Origin: a virus | DNA: 64,000 nt | Reading direction: 5' to 3' (one strand) | Virus record (IMG/VR): IMGVR_UViG_3300031957_002411 | Location: 62,001-126,000 of that record | Shown: in pieces, positions 3,831 to 56,665 of the stretch | How the letters are laid out: each line of letters opens with the position of its first letter | Position numbering within the stretch: position 1 is the first letter of the stretch | The notes under the pieces: generated by a model | What the model saw: the letters and a program-made list of their open reading frames with translations, nothing else | Told to the model about the DNA's origin: nothing | The model's database searches: none | Made by a program: the position numbers and the translations under genes

Positions 3831-3831
3831 T

Positions 3832-5862: not shown

Positions 5863-5866
5863 AATT

Positions 5867-6631: not shown

Positions 6632-6641
6632 AAGGACTAAA

Positions 6642-7406
6642 ATGTTAGAAACAGAAGAAAACCTTTTTGAAGGAGTAGAAGAATTGAGTACACCATCAAA
6701 CACAGATACGTCTGTAAAAAATGTAGTTTTAGAAGATGCTCCATCTATGCTCTCACCAGAGTGGCATGATTACGCCATGACGCTATTTCAGGAGGATGAG
6801 CTAATGAACGGGCATCCTCTCGTAACGGGCCTTAGAAGGGTATCTGAGCTTGTTTTAGGGCCAATGACGTTTAGTGGTCCAACTTGGGTAAAACCTACAG
6901 ATCGTGACGACCATCATGGAAGGGCCACAGTCATATTTACAATAGAATTTGCCAATGGTTTAAGATGCTCAGAGGTAGCAGATTCTTGGGAAGGCAATAC
7001 AGACGACATGTTTTGCGCATTCGCTGTAGCTATTGCTAGCACAAGAGCAGAAGCTAGGGCGTTGCGTAAAGTCCTTAAGATCAAGGGCGTTGCAGCAGAA
7101 GAACTTACAAAGAAAGATACAGCAAAAATTGTGCGAGATCTATCAAAACAAAACAGCAGTAGTGCTGGAGAATTTGATGATTCTAGCAGAATGAGTGATG
7201 CACAATACAATTTTATTGATGTAAAGTGCAAACAGCTGAATGTGGATGGAGGAAAGTTATTCAAGGATGTGTTTAAGGTAGATCAAAATCGCAAGATTTC
7301 TAAGAAAGTGGCAAGTGATATTATTGGAGTTCTCAATAATTATCAACAAGATAAAAGTACTATACCCAGCGAATTAGTGGGTTATAACCAAGAGTGGAGA
7401 AATTAA
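6642..7406 (+). CDS. Rad52/ERF-like single-strand annealing protein candidate
   Basis: The 254-residue protein starts at ATG 6642, preceded by AAAGGA at 6630; an in-frame TTG at 6615 is unlikely. Residues 70-145 contain a beta-rich segment (ATVIFTIEFANGLRCSEVADS) followed by the helix FAVAIASTRAEARALRKVLKI. The 'A-x-T-R-A-x-x-R-A-L-R' pattern is typical of Rad52, ERF and related phage annealing proteins. The C-terminal 60 residues (SDAQYNFIDVKCKQLNV and onward) resemble the small helical tail found on such proteins. If correct, it binds single-stranded DNA and promotes annealing during phage recombination. No recombination partner other than the nucleases at the right end is visible. The assignment rests on this helix only. 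Confidence 0.5.
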   Translation: MLETEENLFEGVEELSTPSNTDTSVKNVVLEDAPSMLSPEWHDYAMTLFQEDELMNGHPLVTGLRRVSELVLGPMTFSGPTWVKPTDRDDHHGRATVIFTIEFANGLRCSEVADSWEGNTDDMFCAFAVAIASTRAEARALRKVLKIKGVAAEELTKKDTAKIVRDLSKQNSSSAGEFDDSSRMSDAQYNFIDVKCKQLNVDGGKLFKDVFKVDQNRKISKKVASDIIGVLNNYQQDKSTIPSELVGYNQEWRN

Positions 7407-16429: not shown

Positions 16430-17896
16430 TTAATCAGATAATTCATAAGTCCAACTACAGTTCAAGCTATAAGCGCCTGTTTTTGGATTCCAAGTTTCTT
16501 GAGGAGCATTCACAAAGTATTTCCTTACATTACTTTCTTGTGATGGAGATAAATCATTTACTATTCTTGATATTTCAGTAGCAAAAGGCGCAACTAAACT
16601 GGGCTTGGTTAGAAGTAAGTCAGATCTACTATCACCATAACCAAGTCTGCTAGGATCAACTACGAACTCGATACTTAAACTTCTAGTAAATTCAGTTCTA
16701 GTTCCCATGCCCTGAAGTATAGGTCCAGTACCTCTACCTATAATTGGTATCACACTAAATACATCTCCGGGGTACGTATCATTGATAGTAATATTTTCAG
16801 TTAATACTCCATCAAAAATATTAACTGGTCTATTGTCAAAACTTATGTTATAACTAACAGTACCCTCATCAGGATTAAATGCTGCACTAACTGATTTTGG
16901 TTGACTATTCATGCTGTGTTCTGTAGCACCGTTCGCCCTTGTGTACAAATGAGAAGCAGTGCCAAAATCGCCATTATTAGACAAACTTAGCCATTCAGTT
17001 CTAGCATTATCATCTGCATTACTACCTGTGCCATCAGTTGTTGTGTCAAATCCACGTATGTTTCCATCTATAGAAACTTCAGTAAATCCTCCTGTACTAG
17101 AAGATGTATTTACAGTAAAGGACTCATGATGCTTGTTGCCAGAAGGTCCAATAAGCCAAGTATCTGAAATAGTATAACTACCAGCAGCTACATCAATACT
17201 TTGTGACCTTCTATGTTTATAAGAAGCATAGCCTTCTAGTTCTAGTAGACCAGCTTCTAAACCACCGTCTGGATAAGCAGCAGCAGAAGTAGCATCATAA
17301 CCCGCATTGGTAAGATATGTTTTAGCGTTGTACCATGCCGCACATGAACCAGCAGGATCACCAGTAGTAGAATCATCTACATCAGCATTTTCTCTGCCAA
17401 CCGCAGTAACGTTTCTCGTCACTGTGTAATACTTTATATTTTCCCCATAAGTATTATCTTGTTCTACACTGTAATCTTCGCCAAAAGATTCTATTTTACC
17501 TGCACCACCATCACCACAAGCTTCAGCGGTAGCGTCTCTACTATAAGCTATTAGATTTACTGTGTAGGGTGCGTGGTTAATGTATACACCCTCTCCAAAA
17601 CTTATATCCAAAAGTCTACATTGAAATTCTTGATTTCCAACTTCTAGCTTTACCCACTCTTTATCAACAAAGTGACTTTCAATACCCTGCTGCGAACTAA
17701 GTATAACATTTAATCTAGAAGAAGGGACTTCTGCTTCATCTGAGCCTCCACCAGATATATCAACAACAAAACCAGTTAATGTTATATTATATACTTTAGT
17801 AAACCTAGCCGTTTTATTTCTGTCTTGGGATACAGATATGCTGACAAACGGTGCTGGTATTATGTCGCTACCTTCAACTTTTACTACTGATGCCAT
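16430..17896 (-). CDS. Virion structural protein, tail-tip region
   Basis: A 488-residue, beta-rich protein with AAAGGAAA upstream of the ATG. The N-terminal 130 residues (VYNITLTGFVVDI, then CRLLDISFGEGVYINHAPY and a YTVNLIAY-type strand) resemble the beta-sandwich of tail-tip adaptor proteins such as distal tail proteins, but only loosely. The C-terminal part has further strands (GTVSYNISFDNRPVNIFDG) that look like a second sandwich. It follows the 3961-residue gene by 21 bases. Role in the tail tip is inferred from gene order. Confidence 0.68.
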   Translation of the reverse strand: MASVVKVEGSDIIPAPFVSISVSQDRNKTARFTKVYNITLTGFVVDISGGGSDEAEVPSSRLNVILSSQQGIESHFVDKEWVKLEVGNQEFQCRLLDISFGEGVYINHAPYTVNLIAYSRDATAEACGDGGAGKIESFGEDYSVEQDNTYGENIKYYTVTRNVTAVGRENADVDDSTTGDPAGSCAAWYNAKTYLTNAGYDATSAAAYPDGGLEAGLLELEGYASYKHRRSQSIDVAAGSYTISDTWLIGPSGNKHHESFTVNTSSSTGGFTEVSIDGNIRGFDTTTDGTGSNADDNARTEWLSLSNNGDFGTASHLYTRANGATEHSMNSQPKSVSAAFNPDEGTVSYNISFDNRPVNIFDGVLTENITINDTYPGDVFSVIPIIGRGTGPILQGMGTRTEFTRSLSIEFVVDPSRLGYGDSRSDLLLTKPSLVAPFATEISRIVNDLSPSQESNVRKYFVNAPQETWNPKTGAYSLNCSWTYELSD

Positions 17897-17917: not shown

Positions 17918-20900
17918 TTATGGACTTGGCGTTGTCGTAACACCACTAGAATATAAATTAAAACCAGATCCAGAGAATACTCCAGAAACCATATCTGGAA
18001 TGTTGCTAGCATATAGTCCCAATCCACTACTTAATACACGCCCTTCAGCTACTTCTGCGAATAAATTCATGGAACCACTAGCTACTGGAGGTCTTCCACT
18101 GGTGTATAGAGTGAAGTTTCTATTATCAATTGGAACTCCTCTGAACCTTTGTCCTGTTATTTCTTTTATAAATGGTCTGTGGACAACAAAGCCTCTTTGT
18201 GAAGGATCTTGACCAGATACTTCTAAGAATATCTCTCCCTCATTATTTGTATACAAAACTCCACTTGTTTCATGCTCTGTATTTAATCCACCGCTATTGT
18301 GAACTTCAAGATATATAAAATCACTAACGTTAGATGTTTGAGATCTATCTATGCCAGAATCACTATATATTCTAGCTTGTAAGAATATTCCGGTGTTGGC
18401 AGTTGTCTGGTCTGGGACTCTCAATATACCATCACTAACATACGCAGCGCCAGCGTCTAGCCCCATCGTAAATGTTGTATGATTACCACTAGTCGCAAAC
18501 TTATGATGAGGAGATCCTACAGCAAATATGTAATCACTATCTGATGTCTTATCTCTAGAGACAGACAAAGCTTTACCAAAGTAATCATTTTCAGATCCAG
18601 ATGCAGATACTGTCTTTTGCAATCTAGAATTGTAACCCTGTGGTACGAGTTTCTGTACCAGCTGCCAATCTTTAGTTCTGCTATCCCAATCACTTACTGC
18701 GTCTTCATAGACAAAAACTGCTCCATTATTAAGAACAGCTGTTACTCCACTGCCACCTAGAGCATACTCATGCCTTACGCCCGACTCACCCATGTCATAT
18801 ATATTTCTTTCAGGTATATCAATAGAAGCAGAGAACGCTTTATGATTAAATGCTCCACTTGCTTCACCTCCCCTAGAGAATATCATTTCCTCAAAATTAG
18901 GGAAGTCATGCCCCGGCGCTCCAACAGCAAGTACATCATCACGGAAATCAACTGAATAACCAAATTGATCAGTTACTCTAGTAAGATGATCTAGCTCTCC
19001 AGAAGTGTAAGCGTGATTACCCAAATGCAAAGAACCAGATGCAAGCTCTACATCAAATATATCTTGACCAACATTAATACTCGTAGGTCTAAACTTACGA
19101 ACTACGTTCCAACTCTTACTACTTCCACCAACTACACCGTAATCACTCAAGGTTCTAGTTCCACGCTCGTACAAGAATGCAGAACCAGCACCACCTCCAT
19201 AGCTAGTAATCGTTCCAGATATTGCTTCGTATCTAGGCGTGTTACCAGAAACAGCAGTCCAAGTAGTTGGAGTTTCTGAAGAGAAAGCAGCAAAAGGTGA
19301 ACCAACAACAAGTTTATTATCACGTATAGCTACAGAGTATCCAAACAAATCACCCGGATATCCAGAAGGTAATTTGTCAAAATCAAGATAATCATAACCT
19401 TTATCTTTGAGTAGTTGTGGCATCTGCCCATAGAATGCATCAGCATACATAGTGCCATCTATAATTCCACTAAACTTAGCAGTTCCCCCGTAGATATATT
19501 GTTCTTGATCAAATGATGCAATTTGTGCTTTTTTAAGAGCAGGTACTTGTTCGGGGCGAGGAGGAAGATCTGTTGGCAATATATACAATGGACTTTCACC
19601 AATATCAATATCTAAAATAGTAATAACATTTCCATTTCTTTCTGCTGCTGGATCAACATCATCCATGAAATTATTCATCTGTAATCCTGAAGTTGGAGTA
19701 GTTCCATCTCCAGCGAACCTAATCATTAACCCAGAATTACCAGTGGAGTTAAAGAGTTTTTGAGGACTAGATTGAACAGGGGCTTTGATTCTTGATATCA
19801 CATTGTAGGAATTGCCCTGATTTTCATCTGGGAAAACAGTGTCTGGATATAAACTATTTAGAAAATCAGCAACAGTGTCATGTATAACTCCATTTTCATT
19901 AGCAATCCTACTACCCTGAATTAGACTAGCATCAGTCAAAACAGTAATCCTAGACTTATCAACGCCAACATCAAAAGGTCTTTGGTGATATACTTCTTGG
20001 GCTGCTACAACTGGACCGTCATCAATTAAACCATCAGGATTTCTTTCAATAAATATTCCAGAACACTCAGTAGATGGACAGTATTTCATGCTATTTGTGC
20101 TGACAGGTCTTGATTCAGTGACTGTCGTAACTACTTCTGGAGTTCCCGGTATAATAATTTCTCTTTCACCAACCTTAACTGGAACTGGTGTAAGTTTTAC
20201 ATCAGAAGGTAGTAAAGCTCCAGAAATTCCAACAATACGTGTTGTAGATGGATTGAAGCTTAATGATTGAGCCTGTTCTAAAGTATAGTTAATCTTATTT
20301 GCATCCATGTAAATGGTAATTTCATTAACATCAATAGCAGTAGTACCATCTCCACTTGGGATATAAATATTTATTGATTCATGATTTACTGACCCATCAA
20401 ACTGAAACTCTCTTTGTCTTGGAGTAAATGCGTTAATATCATACTTTTGCTGCTCAGATCTAGTCTTATGTATACGAGCGCCAATAAAGTCATTAGCAAC
20501 AGTTCTAAATTCATTGTGTTGAGGATTGCCCGGAATATGAATAACGTCTTTTATTTCTACATTTGAACCACTTGCTTGTGCGCCATATCTTCTATCGCAA
20601 TTACTAATTAAGAAATTGGTTTGTAATTTTTCATTAAAGTTTGCAGATATAGTATCAACGAATACTCTATAACCAGAACCAGCTAGAACAGGGAATGTTA
20701 CGGAGGCAACACCTGTCTTCAAATATGGCACATCAATTATTTCAATGAAGTCATCAGTTATATTATGTATATCATTACTGTTTCTACTTTGTGAACTAAG
20801 TAAAGCAGTGCCTCCAGATCTTATATCAACGCAAACTAAAGAACCTAAAGGAATATCTCGAATCTCAGCAATAGTATTATTGCTAATCCTTCCATATGCA

Positions 20901-23900
20901 TTTTTTAATTCAATAGAACCTTTCAAATCTGAGTATGCAAACATTTCAGTAGACGGAGTGGTGCTTCCCTGTAGCGTAACTCCATTTGGAAGTCTAAAGT
21001 CTGTTACATCTGCGTACTTACCTCTAGCTTCTAATAATAAAGGTTTAATATTTATACCTAAACTATTTGCAATTTTCTCAACAGCTCGTATCCTATCAAT
21101 ACTAACTGATGATTCATTGCTACTACTACGACCTAAAGTAATATATAATTTTTTATTATTTGTTGAAAGCCATTCTTTAATAAATCCCATCTCTCTGTTA
21201 AACACTGTATCACTTATGGGATCACCATTATCGTCTAGCAGTGTCGGATTAGCAATCCAAGCAGCTTGATAATGATCGTTGTCTACATAAAATTTAAATG
21301 TTGTAATAGTATCTAATTTTCCGTCAGAAGGTATAGAGGCTTCAAGTAAAGCATCTAAGATAGACTCTTCTCTAGCTTCAAAGAATGAGTCAGTTCCTGT
21401 CCAATCAGCAATGAAAGCGAAGTCTTTTAGTCTCTCTGTTTCACTTCCAACCTCGTAAAGAAGATTGTCATAGAATAAAACATGTCTATCGTCACGACCA
21501 CTAAATATAAATGATCTTAGCTCTGTCTCAGTAGTGCCAATTAATATTACCTCTGACGAGCTTTCTGCATATTTTTCTTTAGCAGTTATTACCAAAGGCT
21601 GGATATTAACAGATGACCTCTTCTGTTCTTTTTCTGGATTGGATTCCCCTCTTAGAATATTAGTTTTATTAAACGATTGATCTGGAGTAGTTATAAATTT
21701 ACTAGGACTTGAAGTAGGCTGTATATTTAAATTAATACGCTTGTAATTATTTGAGTCAGCTGACCAGTAAAAAGCAGCCTCTTCAAAGGGATCATCTCCA
21801 AACACATCTTCAGATATAATTTCAGTACCCATTATATCTTCAATAATTATTTCATCTGGTGTAGCTGGTGTCACCTTCTCAAAACTAACATGTTCTGAAG
21901 CCACCATCAGAGGAATTGGCTCATAATTTATTAAAGTAGGAAATACTGGACAATCACCTTCACCAAGGCAACATCCATAATCAAGTTCATTAACAGTTCC
22001 AAACGCAAAAGCTAGATTAACTGGATATATGATAACTCCAAGACCTCTTGGGTCTTCACAAAAGTCATTCCATTCTGCTCTAAGGTCTCCACCGTGTTGA
22101 GGTATCATATTACATCTACTGTTTAGATCTGCATAACTTGGAAAATCTCCTATTTCTGGAATGCCAAGAATATTCTTTCTTTCTTCACAAGTATATGCTT
22201 CGTATATACCGGGGTAATTTAGTTTTATATCACCCACGCCTGATGCGTAAAGATCAGTACTAAGAACATAAGTTGATGTAGTATTTCTAGGAACAAAGGA
22301 TGGTATTACATTTGGTTCATTTTCATTGAATTCTTGGTCATCAAGTCTATTCGACCCAATCATAGATTCAAACGAATTTCTAGCAGGAACAATCGTCATT
22401 CTAGAATCTAATCGTTGAAGAATCTTATTTATTATTGCAGTGCCTTCTGCGTAAATCCCATTACCTTCAAATCTAGGATCATCAGCGACAAGAACTAAAT
22501 GTCTATCACCAAGACCCAACCAATCTTGTATGTTGTCTAAAACTTCATCACTTAGTGCATCTATTTCTGGAGTTATTATAAATGCTAATCCTGCGTCATT
22601 AGGAATGTCAACTTCACTCTCTGGCAGTCTAGTAAATGTTTTGGAATTTGAAGCAAAAATCTGCGACATGTGATCAAACAGATTAGCACCTTGTGATTCA
22701 ATATTTACAGATCTATGTTTGTTACCAAACAAAGTAAACTCTACAGCTTTATTGTTGTGCGGATAGTATCTTCTAGATTCAAAAACAGTTACAGAACCAG
22801 CATTAACACTATTGTACCATTGACTTTTAATATGTGTTACGTGATTGTAGTTAGTTTGTGGCCTCCACCATAGATCAATTAATCTAAGTGGATCGCCAGT
22901 ACCTATGTCGTCATGTAAAACGCTATCAGTTGGCGCACCAGCTGCTACTATACTACCATCCTCGTTAACTGCAACACTGTAGCCTAGCCTTGGAGTAGGA
23001 GCAAACTTATTAAACAACCAGCTCCATTCACCTCCCGGTTTTATTTCTGAATACTTATATTCTTTTATTAAATCATAACAATGTATATTATTATCTCTAC
23101 GTAACTGCAATTTACCACTTGGTGTTAATTCATCATACACAGCATTGTCAGCAACACTATTACTACCTGCCTCGCTTTGAAGACTTTGCCACCTTCTAAG
23201 CATGGTTCTCAAGTATCCCGTTGGATTGTCATTAGACCCAACATCAGAAAGCCAACTACCCACATAAGGTCTTGGATCTACGTAATTTTTTTGCCATATT
23301 TGAACTGCTTCATTAATATAAGGAGAGCCAATAGCAATAACATTTGCATCATCACTAATTGCAACAGCGTGTCCAAATCTATCTACCGTATTATTATTTA
23401 ATGTTGTTGGAGAATAAATCTCATCTATGATATTCCATCCAGAAACTCCATCATTATTTTCTTCTTCAAAAACAACAACTACACCACCACTAGGTGGAGC
23501 TACATTGAATGTAGCAGCATCAACGTCGAAGTTACCTATAAAGTTAGCAAACAATTCAAAATCTCTAGAATTTTTCATTCTATCTAAATCTAAAGTTTGA
23601 CGCAACAATTCATTGGAAAGATCTATCCACCTTTCTCCTCCAAGCTCTCTATTTGTAAACTCAGTTGTAGCTCCAGATCTAGGAGTTCCACCTATGTCTG
23701 TCACACCACTAGCAAGAGAGTATTCTGCATACCAATCTTTAAATCTATCGAATGAAGCACCTAGTTTTCCTGCTCCCATAGAAAAGCTATCATCAATAAT
23801 AGCAGAAACAATTACAGGTATATTATTGTTTGGTTTTGTTGCATCATACTTGAATACGCCACTCTCTGCACCGTGGAAGATTTGTTTTAGTTGTTCAAGC

Positions 23901-26900
23901 ATTTTGTCATCTGTAGCTTGCCATCCACCAGTTTGATTGTTATCAGTTCGTTTGTGATTATTAATCTCAAACTTGAACACTGTTCCATCTGCTTCTGGAT
24001 CTATAAATTCGTTAGGATCTGCATTAGCGTCATCCAAAACAGGCTCAACTACAATAATCTTAGGATCTATTTTAACAGCAGGATCACAATAGAACTTATA
24101 TAGTAAATCATGTTCTTCAATGACAGATAGAACATCACGCCATGTTTGCGTAATAGGATGTCCACCCGGACCACGGAATGTGCGCTCTTGCACAAATGGA
24201 GATGTAAAGACAAACAGGGCTACTTGTAAAGAATCTGGAACTGGGTCATCAAATCTTCTAGACCACTTACCGTTTGGCGCACCTGCAACAATAATAGGAC
24301 TGTTTCCAGAGCTAGACATGTCTAATGAATATCCTAGATTTCTACCTTCTTGGTTAAGCGTCCAGTTAGTCTGTATAGCAGCGAATGGAAGATCCCTCTG
24401 ATTGGCTGTCCCTTCATTCAATCTAGTAATGACGGATCTTGTCTTGCTATCTCTTCTCATTCCCTCTGGATAAGCCAGTTCTGTTACTAGAGAGAATCCA
24501 GATTTATCATCTTGCTCAGACCAATCAAAGCCGGTAGGTGCAGGATTTCTTTTGTACACAAATACTGAACCAGCTTCTCCAAGAGAATACGATCCAGTGA
24601 AATCGTGTACTTCACGATATGGCGCACCCACAAGTAAGTAGTTGCCCTTTGCTTTAACGGATGCTCCATATTCGTCACTGTAATCTCGACCAGAAGCTTC
24701 AGGAGTACTAACAACGCCAGAAGCTCCAGATATACCATCAGCAATTAACTTGATACCAGAGAAATTAACTTCATCATTAAACCCATACTCTATGCTCATT
24801 GATGCTGGAACACTTTTTCTGTCAGTGCCTCCAGACTTACCAAATATAGTCATTTCATAAGGAGAGTCAGGCACAAGTCCAGTATATTTTCTGATTCCAT
24901 AGAAGTGACCACTGTATCCTACATCTGTTTTAAAGCCACTAGTAGCTAGATTAGTATACAATCGTTTAGGTCTAAATATTCCAGCTTCTACACAATCATC
25001 ACCAAATGTTTCTCCGTGGATAGTAATTGGAGTCTCAGTTGCTCTTTCAAAATTGAAGTCACAGCTGCCAAATGCTGTCAAATCAACACCACGTATTTCA
25101 TCATTGGCTTCTAAATATGAATAATCAGTTTCATTTGCTAGAATACCTGTTCCAACATTTTCATTAGTCCAGTTGATGAAGTTGGAAGCATTGTCTGTAT
25201 TCGCCAAGAATGCGTAACTCATAGTTACAAGGTTTAGATTAGAAACTCCAGAAGGCACAACTCTAGAACCAATTACAAACAGAGGCATTTGATCTATATT
25301 TGTATCTTGTACTGGCTGTACTGTATTCTCAGTATACAGATTCATTAACTGTGTATCTGTAGTAGGATCTGGAATTGTACCATGTACGAATAAAGATTGT
25401 TGTTGATCTGTTTCGATCACGCCATCAGAGAATGAAAATAAACCTATACTACCAGATGGTGGCAGTGGTGTGATGTCCGTAGTGACAAATAAATTCATCT
25501 CAGAACGAGCATCCAACTCTATCTTACCACCAACAAAAAGACTAATAGCAGGATTATGAGTTTGTATATGTGGCTCATGACCAAATAATTCACCAATAGA
25601 ACCAAAAGAATTTAGACTTGGATCAAATGTTATACTTCCCTCGATGGTGCTAGTCACTAATGTCAAAGGTGGAATACTACCATTTATAGGATCGAGCGAT
25701 ACAATATTTGTACCAGAAGTGTAAAGATTAGCACTTCCACTAGCTACAGGAACAGCTTCACCGCTTGTGTATAGATTAAAGTTTCCAGAGTCTATGACAT
25801 GACTATTTACAAAGAACTCTATAGCTTGATTACGAATAGTGCGACCGTCAACATAGAAAGTAAATCCAGATTCAGGGATTATTATTCCAGAAGCCAAAGC
25901 CTCTTCAGCTCTAAGATTTACAGCATGTAATTTAAGATTAGATCTAAATGATGTGCCAGATGGATATGCTAAGTCATACTGAACAAACATTTCATCTAAA
26001 TCAAAATTGTAATATGCTTCAGTCTTTTCTCTATCAATTACATCGCTGTTGAAGTCAGCCCAAGGTTCTGAGTTGTCAATAAAATCTTCATAAGTGAAAG
26101 TACTGCTCAACTTTTGCCAGCAACCACTCTGCTCTAAGTAGTGTGCCTTACGATTTACTAAGCCATAATTACTTCTTTCAAGCTCACTGGTGTCGTTATA
26201 TTGTGGCGCATAAAGGCTAACAATTAACTTAGGACCAGTTGTTCCATCTGACCATGTAACATTATTATCAATGTCATGTTCCATTATGGTGTCAACAACT
26301 AATCCTCTTTGTGTAAAATCGTAACCTCTCGGTAAAGATTTAGATATTCTAGGTGTGACTGCGTAAAATCTATCACTATTGTCATCTCTTGGCACACTAA
26401 GATTAAATCTTAACATGTCATTTTCTATCTGAGAATGATAAGCTAAACCTGATACATTTATAGAGCCACTTGGTAAAGCAGTATCAGTCCTTTGAGTATA
26501 ACCACTACCATCATGAGATAGGTTAAAGATAACAAAATCCTTGCCTACTCTTGTTGTAAATCTATCAAACTCATGATTAAATTGACAAATCTTAAAGTCA
26601 CCCAAGTGCCACTTTTCAGTTTCATCGTTTACATATTCCCAGAAATTGTATTGTCGTTTATCGTAAGTAAGACTGCCACTATCAAATGGTACTTTAAGAG
26701 TCCTGAAGTAACCAGAGGCAGAGGTTTGCTGCATTACTCTAGATTGCTCAGACGGAATCAATCCTTGAACAATATTAGCACCACTAGCATTAAATCCACC
26801 TAAACCTATGTCTGTTATAAATGCGTTAATACCTATACCAGAACCATAAGAGTGACCAGCAATGATGTCGCTATTGCCTGATTGCATGACAAAGGTATTA

Positions 26901-29803
26901 GATCTTGCTCTAAATATATTATCTCTAGAGGAATCATCATCAGTATATAATTTAAGATAACGACTATCATTATCATTATAAGTTAGTAGTACGCTAAGTG
27001 GATAACTATACTTACTATACAATTTTGTATCAAAGACAGAGTTAATACTACCATCAGTGGCTCTAGCATATCCAGCAAGATATCCACCACTGTAACCAAG
27101 AGCAAATTCAAGTTCTTCTCCACTATCCCATTTGGATAACAGCACCCCAGAATCCCAAAGGTTGTAAGAGCTTCCACTAATACTTATGTCAGGAGAAAAT
27201 CTAACATAGGCCGAGAAACCTCCAGAAACTGGGATGCCGCTTCCAAAATTAATATTACCATCTACTCCAGATACTCTAATAGCTTTATTGAATGAATCAG
27301 AGATTCTACCTTTAAGTTCATGGTCTGATTGCACCCAATCAAGAGTTTTATATGATCGTTGCGAAGTATCAAAAATGCCACTACTGTTAAATCTAAGACC
27401 AATGTTTTCTACTATGCTGGCGTTTGCGTCAGAGTTAAAGAAACCACTAGCTGCCGCAGCAGCAAAAGCACCTATTGGGTTAGACAAAACAAAATTATCT
27501 TGAACGCGAGTGAAATCATAGAAGCCACTCATGAACGGAGTTTCTAGTTCTGGATTATAAAATCCATAGCCAAACTGAACTGGGTTGAATGGACCATTTA
27601 CAATCTCACCATCAACGCCTCTCCATCTTCTTGAATAATTTGTTTTAAGTGTTGATTCTTTATCTAATTCTTTATATCCATGAGGTATATTTTCTATCAA
27701 AGATGAATCTACAACTGTGATGTCTGAATTAATGTTTGTTGGAAAATCAGAAGAACCTGAAGGTAGAGCAAAGAACTCTGATCTGTGGAATGGCCTATTG
27801 TTATCTTGATGACCAACAACATGGAGAGGGAAAGCGTTGGAAGGCTTATAAGTAAATGATAAATATGCATGTGCAATTGCAGCGCCGCTGGGGAATGGGA
27901 ATATATCAAGATATAAATGTTCAAAGTAACTACTATCATTGTATGTAGTACTAGCACCTAGATCAACATCATCTTCATATATTTTTAGAGGTATTGTATA
28001 CTCTGCAAATTCTGTGCTATTTATAACAGGGCTTGTTGGAAGAGAATAATGATCACCACCTTCATTGTTAGTTCCAGATGTTGCGAAGTAACTAAACTTA
28101 TCAGAGAAAGTTTCTGTAGATATTCCAAGATCGTCAATCCCACCAAACCCAGACTCAACTGGCATTACACCAATGCCAGAAGGATGCTCACCAGAAGCAT
28201 TCTGTAGGAATCCACCTATCTTTGGAGTTATGTGGAAAAGTTTGTCATCGCTATATCCCACAACGTCTACAACAAAATCTCTAGTTCCAATTGCTTTTTT
28301 AGCTATTATCTTAAGTTCTATATCTTCTATTTGGAAGAAAGAATCTACTTCAGCAAAGTTTTTGCTTTGAGCTGTTTTCAACCCAAATCCAAACTGTCTG
28401 TCAAATTCACCATCTCTCAAGCCAAAGACAGAAGTTGGTGGTTCATGACCAAACTTTAATTTAAGTTTACCTGAGTCAGCAACGTCAGATGTCGATACTA
28501 ACTCAATAAATCTACCTTGATCGCTTGACCTTAAGGATTGAGTAATTTCATTCTCAACCTCATAATTAAATACATTACTATCATTCTTCCAAACTGAATT
28601 TTCACCAGATGGGTAAATAGTAGTATCATAATTGTAAGCTAATACTTGAGATGGTAATATCTCTCTTACTGAACGTAATCCTGTTTCTTGTGATTTTATG
28701 TATACTCCAAGATCGCCATTATCTATAATTCCAGACACACCTAAAGCACCACCGCTTGCCATGATTTCTATGGCTGCTATATTCAAAGTATCATGAACAT
28801 TTACGCCAGTTGGAATGCAGCTCTGGTCGTAGCCAATACTAAAGCCTTCAGTGAATGAGTCGTCATCTGGTCTGCATTGTACATCTATATCTAAATTTAA
28901 TGTATAACCATTACTCATATTGAGTATGGGATAATTAGCGTTAGATGTTAGCAACTTTGCATTATTAGTTTCAGCTTCAGATATATATGTTACATAATTT
29001 TTGTAATCACTATTGTCAGTATCAGCGTCACCTATGATATCAAAATCTTTATACTTAGTAATGAGATTGCCAGAGGGATCTTCTAATCTAAGATTTGAAA
29101 GTGTGTACTTTGGTGGCACATTAGAAGAAGATGAATTGAGTGGCGCTATAGCTCTAATAATTAAGAAGCTATCACGCATAGCAGGATATGGAGGATCTAC
29201 AAAACATTTGAATTTAAATGTTGTTTGTTCAGAAAGATCTCCACTTATAGCGATATTTTGGTTTTCATTTGCTACCAAGAAACTTTGTTTGAAATTGCCG
29301 GTAAATACACCTTCGTCAATATAATCTATTTTACTATCAGTATCTGTAATATCGGTGTGATTAAGAGTTTTAATAATAGTATTATTACCACTATCAAGAA
29401 TTAAATCACCACTGGGATATATCTTTTTAGTAGATATAAAATCATCTAAGCTTAATAGAGAACTATAATTACCTGCAAGTTTATCGACCGTGCCAGTTTT
29501 AATACTACCTGTACCAATAGTACGAGCTATAATGTTTCCTTCAATTAAATCAATAGTAGCATTAACAAATGCGTTTTTAGATGTATTGTCTGTTGGTTGT
29601 GCGCTTATTGATAGAGATGGCTTTTTTATACTTGATATGCTTTCAAATCTATGTATAAAACTATGAAAAGTTGTAGAACCTAATAAGGATGTTTCTGTAT
29701 TCAAATTTGTTAGCGCATTACCTTGAACAGATATCCCAGACAATAGCTTACTAGAGCCAGAAGGTCTACCTGTCATTTTAGCGCTGCAAAAAAAATCACT
29801 CAT
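17918..29803 (-). CDS. Giant virion protein with LamG-like domain, seven FG-GAP blades and a DxSxS insertion
   Basis: At 3961 residues this is the longest gene in the window. Residues 1-830 are beta-rich and unrecognised. Residues about 835-1000 resemble a laminin-G/concanavalin lectin domain. Residues 1338-1525 and the last 65 residues carry a repeated 'LYxSG/LFVxG' strand. Seven FG-GAP motifs of integrin-alpha beta-propellers, pattern FGxSV..D....VGAP, centre near residues 1726, 1841, 2159, 2289, 3501, 3628 and 3762. The insertion between motifs 2 and 3 contains a hydrophobic strand leading to D2004-x-S2006-x-S2008, the metal-site (MIDAS) signature of von Willebrand A domains. The insertion of about 1,100 extra residues between motifs 4 and 5 holds two Rossmann-like segments near residues 2400-2470 and 2870-2930. 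It lies two bases after the tape-measure gene, so a tail-tip adhesin is likely. Domain calls are by eye. Confidence 0.72.
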   Translation of the reverse strand: MSDFFCSAKMTGRPSGSSKLLSGISVQGNALTNLNTETSLLGSTTFHSFIHRFESISSIKKPSLSISAQPTDNTSKNAFVNATIDLIEGNIIARTIGTGSIKTGTVDKLAGNYSSLLSLDDFISTKKIYPSGDLILDSGNNTIIKTLNHTDITDTDSKIDYIDEGVFTGNFKQSFLVANENQNIAISGDLSEQTTFKFKCFVDPPYPAMRDSFLIIRAIAPLNSSSSNVPPKYTLSNLRLEDPSGNLITKYKDFDIIGDADTDNSDYKNYVTYISEAETNNAKLLTSNANYPILNMSNGYTLNLDIDVQCRPDDDSFTEGFSIGYDQSCIPTGVNVHDTLNIAAIEIMASGGALGVSGIIDNGDLGVYIKSQETGLRSVREILPSQVLAYNYDTTIYPSGENSVWKNDSNVFNYEVENEITQSLRSSDQGRFIELVSTSDVADSGKLKLKFGHEPPTSVFGLRDGEFDRQFGFGLKTAQSKNFAEVDSFFQIEDIELKIIAKKAIGTRDFVVDVVGYSDDKLFHITPKIGGFLQNASGEHPSGIGVMPVESGFGGIDDLGISTETFSDKFSYFATSGTNNEGGDHYSLPTSPVINSTEFAEYTIPLKIYEDDVDLGASTTYNDSSYFEHLYLDIFPFPSGAAIAHAYLSFTYKPSNAFPLHVVGHQDNNRPFHRSEFFALPSGSSDFPTNINSDITVVDSSLIENIPHGYKELDKESTLKTNYSRRWRGVDGEIVNGPFNPVQFGYGFYNPELETPFMSGFYDFTRVQDNFVLSNPIGAFAAAAASGFFNSDANASIVENIGLRFNSSGIFDTSQRSYKTLDWVQSDHELKGRISDSFNKAIRVSGVDGNINFGSGIPVSGGFSAYVRFSPDISISGSSYNLWDSGVLLSKWDSGEELEFALGYSGGYLAGYARATDGSINSVFDTKLYSKYSYPLSVLLTYNDNDSRYLKLYTDDDSSRDNIFRARSNTFVMQSGNSDIIAGHSYGSGIGINAFITDIGLGGFNASGANIVQGLIPSEQSRVMQQTSASGYFRTLKVPFDSGSLTYDKRQYNFWEYVNDETEKWHLGDFKICQFNHEFDRFTTRVGKDFVIFNLSHDGSGYTQRTDTALPSGSINVSGLAYHSQIENDMLRFNLSVPRDDNSDRFYAVTPRISKSLPRGYDFTQRGLVVDTIMEHDIDNNVTWSDGTTGPKLIVSLYAPQYNDTSELERSNYGLVNRKAHYLEQSGCWQKLSSTFTYEDFIDNSEPWADFNSDVIDREKTEAYYNFDLDEMFVQYDLAYPSGTSFRSNLKLHAVNLRAEEALASGIIIPESGFTFYVDGRTIRNQAIEFFVNSHVIDSGNFNLYTSGEAVPVASGSANLYTSGTNIVSLDPINGSIPPLTLVTSTIEGSITFDPSLNSFGSIGELFGHEPHIQTHNPAISLFVGGKIELDARSEMNLFVTTDITPLPPSGSIGLFSFSDGVIETDQQQSLFVHGTIPDPTTDTQLMNLYTENTVQPVQDTNIDQMPLFVIGSRVVPSGVSNLNLVTMSYAFLANTDNASNFINWTNENVGTGILANETDYSYLEANDEIRGVDLTAFGSCDFNFERATETPITIHGETFGDDCVEAGIFRPKRLYTNLATSGFKTDVGYSGHFYGIRKYTGLVPDSPYEMTIFGKSGGTDRKSVPASMSIEYGFNDEVNFSGIKLIADGISGASGVVSTPEASGRDYSDEYGASVKAKGNYLLVGAPYREVHDFTGSYSLGEAGSVFVYKRNPAPTGFDWSEQDDKSGFSLVTELAYPEGMRRDSKTRSVITRLNEGTANQRDLPFAAIQTNWTLNQEGRNLGYSLDMSSSGNSPIIVAGAPNGKWSRRFDDPVPDSLQVALFVFTSPFVQERTFRGPGGHPITQTWRDVLSVIEEHDLLYKFYCDPAVKIDPKIIVVEPVLDDANADPNEFIDPEADGTVFKFEINNHKRTDNNQTGGWQATDDKMLEQLKQIFHGAESGVFKYDATKPNNNIPVIVSAIIDDSFSMGAGKLGASFDRFKDWYAEYSLASGVTDIGGTPRSGATTEFTNRELGGERWIDLSNELLRQTLDLDRMKNSRDFELFANFIGNFDVDAATFNVAPPSGGVVVVFEEENNDGVSGWNIIDEIYSPTTLNNNTVDRFGHAVAISDDANVIAIGSPYINEAVQIWQKNYVDPRPYVGSWLSDVGSNDNPTGYLRTMLRRWQSLQSEAGSNSVADNAVYDELTPSGKLQLRRDNNIHCYDLIKEYKYSEIKPGGEWSWLFNKFAPTPRLGYSVAVNEDGSIVAAGAPTDSVLHDDIGTGDPLRLIDLWWRPQTNYNHVTHIKSQWYNSVNAGSVTVFESRRYYPHNNKAVEFTLFGNKHRSVNIESQGANLFDHMSQIFASNSKTFTRLPESEVDIPNDAGLAFIITPEIDALSDEVLDNIQDWLGLGDRHLVLVADDPRFEGNGIYAEGTAIINKILQRLDSRMTIVPARNSFESMIGSNRLDDQEFNENEPNVIPSFVPRNTTSTYVLSTDLYASGVGDIKLNYPGIYEAYTCEERKNILGIPEIGDFPSYADLNSRCNMIPQHGGDLRAEWNDFCEDPRGLGVIIYPVNLAFAFGTVNELDYGCCLGEGDCPVFPTLINYEPIPLMVASEHVSFEKVTPATPDEIIIEDIMGTEIISEDVFGDDPFEEAAFYWSADSNNYKRINLNIQPTSSPSKFITTPDQSFNKTNILRGESNPEKEQKRSSVNIQPLVITAKEKYAESSSEVILIGTTETELRSFIFSGRDDRHVLFYDNLLYEVGSETERLKDFAFIADWTGTDSFFEAREESILDALLEASIPSDGKLDTITTFKFYVDNDHYQAAWIANPTLLDDNGDPISDTVFNREMGFIKEWLSTNNKKLYITLGRSSSNESSVSIDRIRAVEKIANSLGINIKPLLLEARGKYADVTDFRLPNGVTLQGSTTPSTEMFAYSDLKGSIELKNAYGRISNNTIAEIRDIPLGSLVCVDIRSGGTALLSSQSRNSNDIHNITDDFIEIIDVPYLKTGVASVTFPVLAGSGYRVFVDTISANFNEKLQTNFLISNCDRRYGAQASGSNVEIKDVIHIPGNPQHNEFRTVANDFIGARIHKTRSEQQKYDINAFTPRQREFQFDGSVNHESINIYIPSGDGTTAIDVNEITIYMDANKINYTLEQAQSLSFNPSTTRIVGISGALLPSDVKLTPVPVKVGEREIIIPGTPEVVTTVTESRPVSTNSMKYCPSTECSGIFIERNPDGLIDDGPVVAAQEVYHQRPFDVGVDKSRITVLTDASLIQGSRIANENGVIHDTVADFLNSLYPDTVFPDENQGNSYNVISRIKAPVQSSPQKLFNSTGNSGLMIRFAGDGTTPTSGLQMNNFMDDVDPAAERNGNVITILDIDIGESPLYILPTDLPPRPEQVPALKKAQIASFDQEQYIYGGTAKFSGIIDGTMYADAFYGQMPQLLKDKGYDYLDFDKLPSGYPGDLFGYSVAIRDNKLVVGSPFAAFSSETPTTWTAVSGNTPRYEAISGTITSYGGGAGSAFLYERGTRTLSDYGVVGGSSKSWNVVRKFRPTSINVGQDIFDVELASGSLHLGNHAYTSGELDHLTRVTDQFGYSVDFRDDVLAVGAPGHDFPNFEEMIFSRGGEASGAFNHKAFSASIDIPERNIYDMGESGVRHEYALGGSGVTAVLNNGAVFVYEDAVSDWDSRTKDWQLVQKLVPQGYNSRLQKTVSASGSENDYFGKALSVSRDKTSDSDYIFAVGSPHHKFATSGNHTTFTMGLDAGAAYVSDGILRVPDQTTANTGIFLQARIYSDSGIDRSQTSNVSDFIYLEVHNSGGLNTEHETSGVLYTNNEGEIFLEVSGQDPSQRGFVVHRPFIKEITGQRFRGVPIDNRNFTLYTSGRPPVASGSMNLFAEVAEGRVLSSGLGLYASNIPDMVSGVFSGSGFNLYSSGVTTTPSP

Positions 29804-29805
29804 TT

Positions 29806-32800
29806 TTATACTACCATACCGTCCCGTGTTAGTGATCCATCAGGACCAACGCTGTATTCACCAATAGCGTCTGAAACGTATTGCATAATATCGTTCTTAA
29901 GATTAGCAGTTAGATTATTTATAAATGAAGTGCCAGTTAGATTGACATTAATATTAGTTGTATCTAGTTTAATTTGGAATTGTGTATTTTGTAGGTTAGA
30001 AATATTATTAGCAAGTTGTGTGTTAAAATCTCTAAGTGAAGCGCTGAATGAATTTAGGACTTCTGGGCTTACGCCCATTCCACCACCTCCACCAGCTACT
30101 GGATTTTTACTGCCCTCATGTAGATATTGAACTTGTCCTCCTCTAGACATACCCTTGGCTGTGCTTCCTCCGCTATTCATAGATTGTAATATTGAAAGGT
30201 TATTACCACGTTGCACAGCAGATCTACGAACAACAAACTCGCCCGGAGTCAACATGGCAGGAACAGTATCAGTACCCTTTGGTACAAACATTCCTTTGCT
30301 AGCATAAACCATTCCACCTTTTGCAAAACCTGCTGCTGCTAATCTTTCTTTAACAGCTTCTAATTGTGTTTCAGCTGCTTGCATTTGAAGGTTGGCAGCA
30401 TCAAGCATCCTTGCCGCAGAATCAGCTTCAAGTTGAGCTGTTTCTGGTAGAGTTTGAGCTAATGCAATAATTTCTTGATTTATTGCATTTTCTTCGTCTG
30501 TTGTTCCAGCTATGACTCCAGCTTGATCAGCCATTCCAAAGCGAGATAAAGCACCAGCAGCAGCATTTTCAAGCACTCCACCACTACCGCCGATCTGTTG
30601 ACCAAATACAGTCTGTACTCCAGCATTCTGCATGTTTTGTAAGTTTTGCACAGCGCCACCCATGCCAGCCATTCCGAAAGATGACATCAAATTTTGATCA
30701 CCAAGGGCAGCTGCGGCAGTAGCTCCTTGAGTTGCACGACTCTTAAAGAATTCTTCAAAATCACCAGATATTAAAGATTCTAGACCTTTCTTTTCTTCAG
30801 CATTTCTAGCTTTAATTAATTCAAGTTCTCTCTGTTTTTCACTAATAAGTGCGCGGGTAAGATCAGCCTGTTCTTTTATAGCTGCGTTGAGACGATCTTG
30901 TTCGCCTTGCATCGCAGTGCCTTCCATTCTACCAATATCACCACCGCCAGCAACATTAAGTCTTGTTCCTTGTATTCTATTTGCTCTTGCTGTAATTTCA
31001 TTATTTCTTTGACGTATTTCACCGGCACTACCAGTTCTCAACTGAGTTAAACCAAGGTTGGAAGTACGGGCATTAGATTGTGCTATCAAACTTTGTTGAC
31101 GCTGTTGTGAGGTTACAGCTGGCCCACCAGCTTTAGCAATAATTTCAGCAGCTTCCAATTGTACCGCAATAACCTTAGCATTAGCATCAGCTAACTGATT
31201 CTCCAAAGCAATTCTCTTCTTGAGAATGCTAGCCATCTTTTGTTCAATTTCAGCAGATTTTTTTATAGCCTCTTGAAATTCTTTTAAAGACTCTTCTCCA
31301 AATTGATCAACAAGTTTCTGTAAAACACTGAAATCACCCCTATTCAATGCGTCTATATCACCTTGCTCTAGGTCAGCAGTAGATATCAAGGATTTTAGAT
31401 TGTCAATCTGTGTATCAGACATTATACCTTGCATCTGCTGTCCTATTTGATCAGCAAAGGCTTGTTTTAATTCTTGTGGATTCAGAGGGCCGTCTTTTGC
31501 AGGATCAAAACTTTTCTTTAAGTTTTCAATCACACTCGGAACTGCTGCTTGTGCTGCGTTAATTCCTGTAGTAGATTCTTTAAACTTATCAATTTGATCA
31601 GCACTAGCTCCAAGATTTTCTAAGGCTCTAGCACCTGTCTGGACAGCGCCAGCAAAAACGGCAGGGTCTAAGGCTGCACCCGCAGCAGTTAGACCAGCTT
31701 GTAAAGTACCCAAAGCATTCTCAATACTACTATTATCACCTAAATCTTCAAAATTACCTAAATTGTTTAGTGCGACGATAGAAGCGTCAGCAGCGGCATT
31801 TACATTTGTAAGTCCAAGATTTAATAATTCAAATTGTTTTCTAGCTCTTTCTACATCTTTTTGTATACTATCAAAAATATCTTCTAAACTAACGCCAGCT
31901 CTATCAAACGCTGCACGTAATGCTGGATCTAAACTAGCAAAAAATCCTTGAAAGTCACCACCAGAAGCTGCCATAGCTCTTGCTTGAGCTTGAACAGCAG
32001 GCATTGCTATCTTAGTTACATCTTGATCTCTAGCTTCTTGAGCTTTTCTCTCTTCTCTTCTGACTGTGGCGGTGGTTTTTTCCATTCCAAGCATCTGTCT
32101 TATTTGACCCGGAACACCACCAAGAAAACCAAACATAGAGTCACCACCACTTGAACTTCTCTCTGATGCCGTTACTGCCTCTTTTCCTCTTCTATTAGCT
32201 TCACTAGCAGATTCAGCAGCTGCGATGGCTGGTTCCAAAAATTCTGCTATAGAAATATTACCTTTGGTATATTCTTGGGCTGCTTTAGCTGCGTCTTCAT
32301 GAGCCTGAGCTAGTGCTTTTGCAGTAGCAGCTGCCTGTGCCTGAGCAGCAGCTTGAGTTTTAGCAACTTCAATACTAGGCTTTAAGACTTGAGCTATCAA
32401 TAATCCAAAAGCAGCGCCTATAGCAGCGCCAATTGGACCACCAAGTAAAAAGCCAAGAACAGCGCCGCCGCCTGCACCAGCTGCCTGAATACCCACTGAA
32501 TCAAATCCAGCACCCTCCACAGCGGCTCGCTCTGCCGCTGCAACATTACCGTCTTCTATGGCATATGTTAGCCTTTCAGTGACTCCATTTAATTTTTTCA
32601 ATAATCCAACAAAAAGATACATACCAGCGGCAGCAATCGCTGCTGCGCCAAATGCTTGTGTAACACTGCCAACAGCTGCACCAAGCTTTCCAAACTTGTC
32701 GCCTAATACGGTAAAACCTTGTCCCTGCTTCAATGGACCCATTCTTTCCTGAATGCCAGCCATTTTTCCGAATTTAGATGTGCCTAATCTATCACCAAAA

Positions 32801-35181
32801 TTTATACCCATTTGTTGACCGATATTAGTAAATGCCGATTTGCCTTCTCCCCCAAACAAGGCAAACATGCTGGAAACATTTGCTGCCTTAGCAAGTTCAG
32901 TAAGTCCTGTAGCAGCTGCTGTAATTGTAGTTCCAAATTCTAGAATCGAACTAGTATTTCTCATGAAAGCGCTGGTATTCTCATCAATAACTGGCATCAA
33001 AGCTTGTATAGAACCCAAAGCTAGAGTAAGACCTAAAGCACCGCTGATTCCTCCTTCTGCTTCACCACCATTCTTAAATCTTTGTACCTTACCGCCTGTA
33101 GCATATCTATTGATTTTTTTAAGATTACCATAACCAAAAGCTTCAGCAGATTTTCTATTTACAACAAATTCACCGGGAGTAAGAAGTGCTGGAACTGTGT
33201 CCGTACCAGCGCCACTAATGCCTCCACCTTTATTTCTTCTTGCGTATCTACCAGTAACGTTTGAGGGGCTAAGAGGAGATTTACCATGATCAATTAGATA
33301 TCTACCAAAACCCCCAGATGTACCAGTAATTTGATCTAACAACATCTCTTCTGTTGTTTTGTTAGATGTAAGATATTGCTTATACTGATACGTACCCCTA
33401 TTAGCAGCGTTACGAGCTGTTTTAGACGATGTTACTAGCGTGCTAGAAGGAATCTTAACTCCTCTACCAGCACCAGAACCTTTAGCCTTGGGAAATTCTT
33501 GTTCAGGGTTCAATGACTGTAATGCTGATAGTCTGGACTCAGCTACCCGACTAGGCTTTCCTTTGGTTTCATAAGCGTCATAACCTGCGGGTCTAAATGT
33601 TGCTCTGAATTTTTTCCCAGTAGGCGCGACCATTGCGCTAAACGTATCTCCATCATCCATTTTTATGCTTCGTTTATCTAGGCTAGCTAATTCTGCCATG
33701 CCGCCTGCTTTATATTTATTAATACTAGATAAATTTTTAGCACCAAAAGCTTGTACAGCGCTTTTACGAATTACAAACTCTCCCGGCGTAAGCATAGCTG
33801 GCACAGTATCAGAGTTTCCAGTACCGGGAACTGTACCTCCTCTATTCATACCTAAAGCTCCCTTAATACCACCAAATGCGCCTCCAAGACCCTTAGCGAT
33901 CTTAATAGTAGCGAAAGCTGCGATAAGTGGAATTAATGGCTTGATAGCATCAGCGACTTTCAAAAATGCACTAGCAATGTTTAAAGCAGAATTAGCTATA
34001 AATTGAAAGCTTTTAGTTCCAGTTATTTCTCTTATTAGAGCAACAAATTCTTCTTTAGTTCTAGAAATTCTTACAGCTAAAGATAGTTGCGCAGTGGCAG
34101 CATCGTTAGCCAATGAATCAGATCCAGCAATAGCAACATTCAAAGCGTCTTGCGCTGTAGAAAACTGTTGAATTAATGGAATGACTTTACCAATTTGTCT
34201 AAACCCACCAAGTTCTTCAGCAATTTTTATAAAACTTAAATCACCAGCCTCAAGCCCAGAAAGAGCTTGACTTAATCTTTTAATAGCTTCAAAAGGTCCA
34301 ACAAATTTACCATCTAAATCAGTAAGTTCAACACCAAATTGTTTTAAAAATTCTATAGTTTTTGGTCTTTGTATTCTCGTAAAGATAGTACGTAAACCAG
34401 TAGCAATACTTTCTGCTGACTCTCGGGTTGTAGCCCTAACACTAGTGAACAGCGCTATAAGTTCATTTAAATCACCACCAGCAGCTTTAAACACACCTCC
34501 AGTACGACGAATAACAGCAATCAAGTCACCTGCTTCAACAGCGAACTGACCAGCAACAGCATTTATAGCACCAAGCTGCGCTTCTAACGCTGCTGCTCCT
34601 TGCTTAAACTGATTGAAGATAGCAATAGCACCTTCAGCAGTTTGAGCAATATCGTCAAACGTAGGAGCTAAAGTGGTACGAGCTAAAGAATCTAAAGCAA
34701 CTTTTGTTTCTCTTGCGTCAAGACCTGCCTGAGAAAGAATTCTAGATACATTAATTAAAGAAGTCGAAGATGCACCAAAAGCAGTGGAAAGACGAGTGAT
34801 CTCACTTGTCAGACCCCTTAGCTCAGTAACAGTCTTTCCAGTAACCTGTACAACTTTAATTAATTCTCTTTCAAAATCAATTGCTTCTTTTATAGCGTTA
34901 CTAAGAGTACTAGTAAATAACGTGACAGCGCGAGTGGCAATAGCTAATCCAGCATACCTTCTTATGGAGGTCTGCAATGTTTTGCCAAGACCACTAGCAG
35001 CTTGAGATGCTTGATTAGTGGCCTTAGTTATATTTTGGATTTGTTTCTGTGTTTGACTGCCACCCTGAACGTTTACATTAACATTCACACCTTTAAGTTG
35101 TTGTTGTATTTGATTAACAACTTGTCTGGCGTTTTTTGGCGCTTGTAGTTGTACTTGTGCAGTTAATACAAATTTAGACAT
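29806..35181 (-). CDS. Tail tape measure protein with a nuclease-like insertion
   Basis: This 1791-residue protein has the features of a tape measure: a Gln/Asn-rich amphipathic N-terminus, a conserved core (RELIKVVQVTGKTVTELRGL, residues 100-400) typical of TP901-type tape measures, Ala-rich coiled coils, and hydrophobic stretches near residues 835 and 925 that could enter the host membrane. Three copies of a 'DTVPAxLTPGEFVxxxSA' module occur near residues 455, 660 and 1640. Between the first two, residues 505-632 read DGDTF, then RPAGYDAYETKGK, then GFGRYLIDHG, a pattern matching staphylococcal nuclease (DGDT, R-x-x-G-x-D-x-x-E, YGR-x-L) though degenerate. Tape measures set tail length and are ejected with DNA. 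It follows two tail-chaperone-position genes. Function is firm; the nuclease likeness is tentative. Confidence 0.93.
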   Translation of the reverse strand: MSKFVLTAQVQLQAPKNARQVVNQIQQQLKGVNVNVNVQGGSQTQKQIQNITKATNQASQAASGLGKTLQTSIRRYAGLAIATRAVTLFTSTLSNAIKEAIDFERELIKVVQVTGKTVTELRGLTSEITRLSTAFGASSTSLINVSRILSQAGLDARETKVALDSLARTTLAPTFDDIAQTAEGAIAIFNQFKQGAAALEAQLGAINAVAGQFAVEAGDLIAVIRRTGGVFKAAGGDLNELIALFTSVRATTRESAESIATGLRTIFTRIQRPKTIEFLKQFGVELTDLDGKFVGPFEAIKRLSQALSGLEAGDLSFIKIAEELGGFRQIGKVIPLIQQFSTAQDALNVAIAGSDSLANDAATAQLSLAVRISRTKEEFVALIREITGTKSFQFIANSALNIASAFLKVADAIKPLIPLIAAFATIKIAKGLGGAFGGIKGALGMNRGGTVPGTGNSDTVPAMLTPGEFVIRKSAVQAFGAKNLSSINKYKAGGMAELASLDKRSIKMDDGDTFSAMVAPTGKKFRATFRPAGYDAYETKGKPSRVAESRLSALQSLNPEQEFPKAKGSGAGRGVKIPSSTLVTSSKTARNAANRGTYQYKQYLTSNKTTEEMLLDQITGTSGGFGRYLIDHGKSPLSPSNVTGRYARRNKGGGISGAGTDTVPALLTPGEFVVNRKSAEAFGYGNLKKINRYATGGKVQRFKNGGEAEGGISGALGLTLALGSIQALMPVIDENTSAFMRNTSSILEFGTTITAAATGLTELAKAANVSSMFALFGGEGKSAFTNIGQQMGINFGDRLGTSKFGKMAGIQERMGPLKQGQGFTVLGDKFGKLGAAVGSVTQAFGAAAIAAAGMYLFVGLLKKLNGVTERLTYAIEDGNVAAAERAAVEGAGFDSVGIQAAGAGGGAVLGFLLGGPIGAAIGAAFGLLIAQVLKPSIEVAKTQAAAQAQAAATAKALAQAHEDAAKAAQEYTKGNISIAEFLEPAIAAAESASEANRRGKEAVTASERSSSGGDSMFGFLGGVPGQIRQMLGMEKTTATVRREERKAQEARDQDVTKIAMPAVQAQARAMAASGGDFQGFFASLDPALRAAFDRAGVSLEDIFDSIQKDVERARKQFELLNLGLTNVNAAADASIVALNNLGNFEDLGDNSSIENALGTLQAGLTAAGAALDPAVFAGAVQTGARALENLGASADQIDKFKESTTGINAAQAAVPSVIENLKKSFDPAKDGPLNPQELKQAFADQIGQQMQGIMSDTQIDNLKSLISTADLEQGDIDALNRGDFSVLQKLVDQFGEESLKEFQEAIKKSAEIEQKMASILKKRIALENQLADANAKVIAVQLEAAEIIAKAGGPAVTSQQRQQSLIAQSNARTSNLGLTQLRTGSAGEIRQRNNEITARANRIQGTRLNVAGGGDIGRMEGTAMQGEQDRLNAAIKEQADLTRALISEKQRELELIKARNAEEKKGLESLISGDFEEFFKSRATQGATAAAALGDQNLMSSFGMAGMGGAVQNLQNMQNAGVQTVFGQQIGGSGGVLENAAAGALSRFGMADQAGVIAGTTDEENAINQEIIALAQTLPETAQLEADSAARMLDAANLQMQAAETQLEAVKERLAAAGFAKGGMVYASKGMFVPKGTDTVPAMLTPGEFVVRRSAVQRGNNLSILQSMNSGGSTAKGMSRGGQVQYLHEGSKNPVAGGGGGMGVSPEVLNSFSASLRDFNTQLANNISNLQNTQFQIKLDTTNINVNLTGTSFINNLTANLKNDIMQYVSDAIGEYSVGPDGSLTRDGMVV

Positions 35182-56640: not shown

Positions 56641-56665
56641 GTGTTTTTCTCCTTTTTGTATTATA

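Follow-up and report, generated by a model that had tools for sequence, protein, structure and literature searches.

A giant tail-region protein of uncultured phages with a probable seven-bladed FG-GAP_2 propeller and two large inserts

RESULTS AND DISCUSSION

According to our analysis, the gene that follows the tape measure in an uncultured tailed phage encodes a giant protein in which seven FG-GAP_2 blades are interrupted by two large inserts, a layout common to 49 non-redundant viral sequences. The explanation that best accounts for the whole, to which we give a probability of about 0.6, is that this is a giant, probable distal-tail fusion protein whose single closed propeller would present the two inserts to the host.

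Gene neighbourhood and relatives of the giant gene

The window analyzed here, a stretch of 64,000 nucleotides, comprises bases 62001-126000 of the 135,790-base IMG/VR virus record IMGVR_UViG_3300031957_002411. It encodes a tailed phage, since a head maturation protease (62684-63331), a large terminase (60726-62702, minus strand) and a tape-measure gene (29806..35181, minus strand; PF10145, E 1.7e-22; phrog_28) are present, together with a head-protein match (54830-55522) and a second, weak one (55633-56679). The tape-measure gene stands directly upstream of the giant gene (17918..29803, minus strand; 3,961 aa), whose open reading frame (ORF) starts two bases past the tape-measure stop and is followed by a conserved downstream gene of 488 aa (16430..17896, minus strand; about 570-670 aa in relatives). 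In most relatives with known flanks the order is tape measure, giant gene, and then genes of ~600, ~1,600 and ~1,000 aa, so that the giant gene, right behind the tape measure in an order preserved among relatives, belongs to the tail module. From this position and from the domain types of the family, a role as a tail-tip or baseplate adhesin is deemed most likely.

The large terminase shares only about 24-33% identity with those of named phages, and the best 80 of its 599 matches in viral contigs are at least 78% identical to it; its relatives appear to be an abundant uncultured phage group. Searching the contigs of these terminase relatives yielded two full-length homologues of the giant protein, and scanning viral contigs with profiles brought 28 loci and later 52, with 49 non-redundant sequences including the window protein. 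None of the 49 comes from a named phage, and the giant protein is a candidate host-binding protein for this uncultured group. No relative of the propeller part was found among the named phages and plasmids searched, the PDB sequence search gave no credible relative, and the PHROGs search of the giant protein, the N-terminal parts and the downstream gene returned nothing useful. A first-pass annotation, made from the letters of the window, had stated that no described phage protein was known to have this layout; none turned up in the sequence collections searched, and the literature on phage FG-GAP proteins offered nothing that matches it.

Two loci from bacterial genome assemblies, L123 (SAR202 MAG) and L124 (Verrucomicrobiales MAG), were rejected as host evidence because they are near-copies of viral sequences. 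Their ORF lengths match those of L104 and L110, and their likeliest origin is phage contigs that were binned together with bacterial DNA. On the opposite strand of the window, a gene block occupies 3-7406 (plus strand), of which at least the first two genes encode glycosyltransferases (PF00534); a similar plus-strand ORF block adjoins the tail genes in the relative L094.

Fusion, split and the N-terminal part

The complete, unsplit versions of the protein are 3.6 to 5.4 thousand residues long. Two genes take its place in three relatives, L170 (9674-9680), L171 (9761-9797) and L174 (9764-9770), where the division falls at window residue 1581/1586, with an ATGA stop-start overlap at the split in L170 and L174. 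What corresponds to the N-terminal part of the window protein (residues 1-1581; 25061..29803, minus strand, as are all features of the giant gene given below) is there a gene of its own. The giant protein is therefore a natural fusion or, alternatively, the ancestral form from which the split versions derive. Standing alone, the propeller and its inserts make up a protein of ~2,200 aa, 2,199 aa long in L170, for which the split relatives offer ready-made constructs.

Within the N-terminal part, a lectin-like (LamG/ConA-type) domain is predicted at about residues 850-1010 (26774..27256), a position derived from the alignment with the relative L108, in which PF13385 (lectin-like) is matched with E 1.3e-7. 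Adhesion-type modules, namely RCC1, LamG, Big_9, Calx-beta and cadherin, occur in the N-terminal parts of some relatives, and the lectin-like, RCC1, Big_9, Calx-beta and cadherin-like modules suit a surface-binding role.

Some relatives, such as L108 (581-10027, plus strand), have about 1,500 additional N-terminal residues. An RCC1-like propeller was recognised in 2 of the 17 N-terminal parts scanned (best E 5.8e-25), and those proteins would therefore hold two different propellers. At the opposite end of the window protein, C-terminal LYTSG-type repeats (residues 3849-3955; 17939..18259) resemble the repeats at 1263-1365 in the comparison of the profile with itself.

Seven FG-GAP_2 blades, most likely in one closed ring

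The propeller with its inserts spans residues 1680-3792 (18428..24766). All seven blade motifs that the first-pass annotation had read are present where it placed them, and our blade profiles locate the FG..GAP segments at residues 1712-1728 (blade 1; 24620..24670), 1823-1843 (blade 2; 24275..24337), 2143-2161 (blade 3; 23321..23377), 2273-2291 (blade 4; 22931..22987), 3487-3503 (blade 5; 19295..19345), 3614-3630 (blade 6; 18914..18964) and 3742-3765 (blade 7; 18509..18580); each blade has four strands, the first marked by FG and the second by GAP (PMC3192720). The Pfam model FG-GAP_2 (PF14312) matches four stretches of the giant protein with E 5.8e-18 and 65.3 bits, against a cut-off of 23, and among relatives it is matched in all sequences scanned, 25 of 25 for the N half and 24 of 24 for the C half. 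A blade profile trained on blades 1-4 detects blades 5-7, and one trained on blades 5-7 detects blades 2-4 and not blade 1; a shuffled copy used as a control gave only noise. When the 25-sequence profile was compared with itself, blades paired with up to 97.9% probability. Since the two halves detect each other and the layout is shared by 49 sequences, one seven-bladed propeller is most likely.

In the same self comparison, residues 1645-1733 align with 3539-3635, which comprise the last two strands of blade 5 and the first two of blade 6 (probability 96.6%). The last strand of blade 7 is therefore predicted to be supplied from the N-terminal side, and residues 1680-1690 (24734..24766), N-terminal to blade 1, are the probable closing (velcro) strand. 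Integrin propellers are closed in this manner, by a last-blade strand from the N-terminal side. Judging from the profile evidence, the seven blades most likely form one closed ring with the closing strand before blade 1.

AF2 models were made separately for the two halves, residues 1650-2600 and 2640-3830, and are of moderate confidence (mean pLDDT 66 and 59, respectively). A Foldseek search of the PDB with the first-half model gave only three matches below E 1e-3, the integrin chains aL (5e6r, 5e6s) and aX (4neh), with E 1e-7 to 5e-6, whereas integrins without an I domain were matched over 150-190 columns only, with E 0.008 or worse. With the second-half model, all 50 matches listed were integrin alpha chains (best E 1.6e-5). 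This search of piecewise models was the check that the first-pass annotation had proposed, and integrin alpha matches do lead it; however, besides the moderate pLDDT, the models superpose on integrins with low TM-scores of about 0.05-0.3, denoting local and not global superposition, and the leading alignments have only 10-16% identity. PF14312, the blade profiles, the self comparison and the integrin alpha fold matches together support the seven-bladed, integrin-type propeller which that annotation had envisaged. The models suggest a resemblance of fold to integrins, which does not imply a shared function.

Position and content of the two inserts

Secondary structure and alignments delimit insert 1, a predicted alpha/beta domain of ~260 aa, to residues 1845-2104 (23492..24271). 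It begins after the GAP of blade 2 (1843), and the stretch past it, GGVVVVFEEENN...WNIIDEIYSP (2105 on), corresponds to a pair of strands 3 and 4 that continues into the FG of blade 3; in the self profile comparison, residues 2105-2163 align with strands 3-4 of blade 5 together with the first two strands of blade 6. Since this following stretch constitutes strands 3-4 of blade 2, insert 1 lies inside blade 2, in the strand 2-3 loop. The unusually long gap noticed earlier between motifs 2 and 3 is thus real, but its placement exactly between blades 2 and 3 has to be corrected.

Insert 2 (residues about 2350-3480, ~1,130 aa; 19364..22756) is placed by alignment after a complete blade 4, that is, between blades 4 and 5, where an insertion of about 1,100 residues had indeed been reported. 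Across 46 sequences, insert 1 measures 237-291 aa and insert 2 985-1208 aa, and because these lengths are kept, the propeller layout is a family trait and not a single-genome accident. Insert 2 contains a first alpha/beta domain, DUF4350-like (2375-2479; 22367..22681), and a second copy of it (2816-2931; 21011..21358), which pair in the self profile comparison with 95.5% probability and E about 1e-8. Its likeness to Pfam families is weak, with DUF4350 (PF14258) matched in 9 of 25 members (best E 0.003) and ABC_transp_aux (PF09822) in 3 of 24 (best E 0.078); unlike in these families, the phage domain is duplicated and carried by a propeller. Insert 1 was considered as a third copy of the insert 2 domain and rejected, as the self profile comparison shows no similarity between them. 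Residues 2401-2454 (22442-22603, minus strand) hold many positions that are invariant over the 49 sequences (TP, GDR, DP.(W/F/Y)E..G.Y), hinting at a predicted active or binding site.

Host-binding hub or structural scaffold

In the explanation that we prefer, the giant would be part of the virion, probably in the distal tail, and a protein in which a ~1,580-aa lectin-bearing protein is fused with a ~2,370-aa propeller protein. One FG-GAP_2 propeller of seven blades, closed into a ring by an N-terminal strand, would act as a rigid hub; going by the integrin fold, both insert loops would open on the same (top) face, and the hub would likely display both inserts to the host surface to allow attachment. 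The conserved [DE]x[ST]xS in insert 1 is a candidate binding site for a metal ion and a ligand, and the integrin-like plan would have come about by convergence, from bacterial-type FG-GAP_2 blades and an independent alpha/beta insert.

The main rival to a host-binding role is a purely structural one, in which the propeller is a baseplate or tail-tip scaffold that serves as a spacer or assembly hub, and the inserts touch neighbouring tail proteins. The position of the gene next to the tape measure in a constant gene order is consistent with such a scaffold, as is the ability of the two parts to be separate genes, and the many invariant positions in the first domain of insert 2 resemble an assembly interface more than a variable receptor-binding tip. 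However, lectin, RCC1, cadherin and Calx-beta modules, which relatives carry, are typical of surface adhesion, and we consider the purely structural role possible and on balance rather doubtful.

Insert 1 and the D-D-S-F-S motif

Another rival reading would make insert 1 a functional analogue of the alpha-I domain, with a VWA fold and a working metal site that mediates metal-dependent attachment; either the motifs of this site would have changed places between strands, with Asp on the first and [DE]x[ST]xS on the fourth, or the chain would be circularly permuted. The aL and aX integrins, as the sole matches of the first-half model below E 1e-3, point in this direction, and so does the predicted order of elements. 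In the AF2 model, at moderate confidence, insert 1 runs as strand 1857-1866, helix 1889-1905, strand 1910-1922, strand 1941-1947, helix 1960-1977, strand 1998-2004, helix 2015-2031, strand 2045-2051 and helices. VWA domains have the order strand, helix, hairpin, helix, strand, helix, strand, the beginning of which is fitted by insert 1, including the lack of a helix between strands 2 and 3. The top alpha-I integrin matches and the element order of the models thus favour, and do not prove, that insert 1 is VWA-like.

The VWA or alpha-I likeness put forward by the first-pass annotation is favoured by the fold matches but finds no counterpart in sequence profiles. The VWA profiles PF00092 and PF13519 gave no match on insert 1 at E up to 10 in 16 records, while the controls were detected; hhalign of insert 1 against a VWA profile returned a probability of 1%, and doubling or permuting the query did not help; the comparison with the VWA profile gave no signal apart from DxSxS. 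A large Foldseek column count was rejected as proof of an aligned I domain, because gaps are counted in the columns and alignments of about 670-770 gapped columns are likewise obtained with viral FG-GAP proteins that are only 411-650 aa long.

The motif itself, taken earlier for a MIDAS signature, is present as D-D-S-F-S at residues 2004-2008 (23780..23794), at the end of a strand. DxSxS occurs three times in the giant protein against 3.0 occurrences expected from composition, so that its bare occurrence is not significant. The copy at 2004-2008 is the only conserved one, with [DE]x[ST]xS in 48 of 49 sequences, and its positions belong to the best-conserved polar ones within insert 1; for these reasons it is probably functional. 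In VWA domains, the MIDAS consists of DxSxS on the first strand, a Thr in a loop and an Asp after the fourth strand. In the model of insert 1, by contrast, [DE]x[ST]xS is carried by the fourth strand, the place of the third metal motif (TDG) in VWA domains, and Glu replaces Asp at the first motif position in 13 of 49 sequences. The first strand of insert 1 ends in T-D-x-F, the Asp position of which (Asp in 43 of 49 sequences, Asn in five) is Ser 1868 (24200..24202) in the window protein, and a conserved partner Thr is missing where one would be expected between the two strands. Residues 2004-2008 are not a standard MIDAS; a swapped or permuted metal site in insert 1 is possible.

The conservation of the 1868 position and of [DE]x[ST]xS would agree with a functional alpha-I analogue, whereas the Glu variants, the Ser of the window protein, the lack of a conserved Thr, the VWA profile results and the gapped columns, which short viral proteins reach in similar counts, argue against it, and we think it unlikely. 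The fullest form of the idea, a phage-built, alpha-I-like attachment head in which a closed propeller carries a VWA-fold insert in blade 2 and a rearranged, metal-dependent site grips a host ligand, appears to us somewhat less likely still.

Integrin-like plan and comparison with known propellers

Returning to the host-binding hub as the preferred explanation, its propeller shares with the alpha-I integrins (aL, aX) the seven FG-GAP blades, the probable closing strand before blade 1 and the insertion of an alpha/beta domain at blade 2. The blade 2 strand 2-3 loop, used by the phage protein, and the loop between blades 2 and 3 both open on the same face of the fold. The integrin alpha-I domain sits between blades 2 and 3 (PMC3192720), unlike phage insert 1. 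The phage protein further differs from alpha-I integrins in carrying another very large insert, between blades 4 and 5, and in having no recognisable VWA sequence, and neither thigh/calf nor membrane parts of integrins were identified in it. In metazoan integrin alpha chains, blades 5-7 have calcium loops of the DxDxDG type (PMC3192720), whereas a D-x-[DN]-x-[DN]-G calcium loop is absent from the window protein and occurs only in scattered cases in relatives.

With the integrin-type FG-GAP model PF01839 no match was obtained at E up to 1, the only hits being PF14312 and one spurious hit. The phage blades belong, above the curated cut-off, to the same family as the Pfam FG-GAP_2 (PF14312) proteins, and bacterial FG-GAP_2 proteins appear to be nearer sequence kin than integrins, although these bacterial matches are ORFs of about 550 aa, too short for the two inserts of the phage protein. 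Prokaryotes also have seven-repeat, integrin-type FG-GAP propellers (Chouhan et al. 2011, PMC3192720), which in bacteria are regular and compact, with one Ca2+ site per repeat (PMC3192720), while the phage protein is without such Ca2+ sites and is interrupted twice.

Because its blades are of another family and without calcium loops, its insertion loop is a different one and VWA sequence is missing, the giant protein is integrin-like in plan and not an integrin. The first-pass annotation had left convergence or descent open; convergence is the better reading, with no indication of descent from integrins. An origin from animal integrin alpha chains through horizontal transfer, which the lead of these chains among the PDB fold matches might suggest, is hardly credible in view of the differences in blade model, DxDxDG loop and insertion loop, the low identity of the leading alignments, the over-representation of integrins in the PDB and the bacterial FG-GAP_2 proteins that make up the cellular sequence matches.

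If the ring and the insert are confirmed, the phage protein would represent a second, apparently independent adhesion-type propeller with an alpha/beta domain extending from the second blade, and the alpha-I-like architecture, which in integrins is reported to have appeared around the first chordates (PMC3192720), could also arise from bacterial-type FG-GAP_2 blades. Phage FG-GAP propellers are also found among the viral FG-GAP proteins of BFVD, such as A0A6J5S3H5 of an uncultured Caudovirales phage, which, compared by length, is much shorter than the giant protein (473 versus 3,961 aa).
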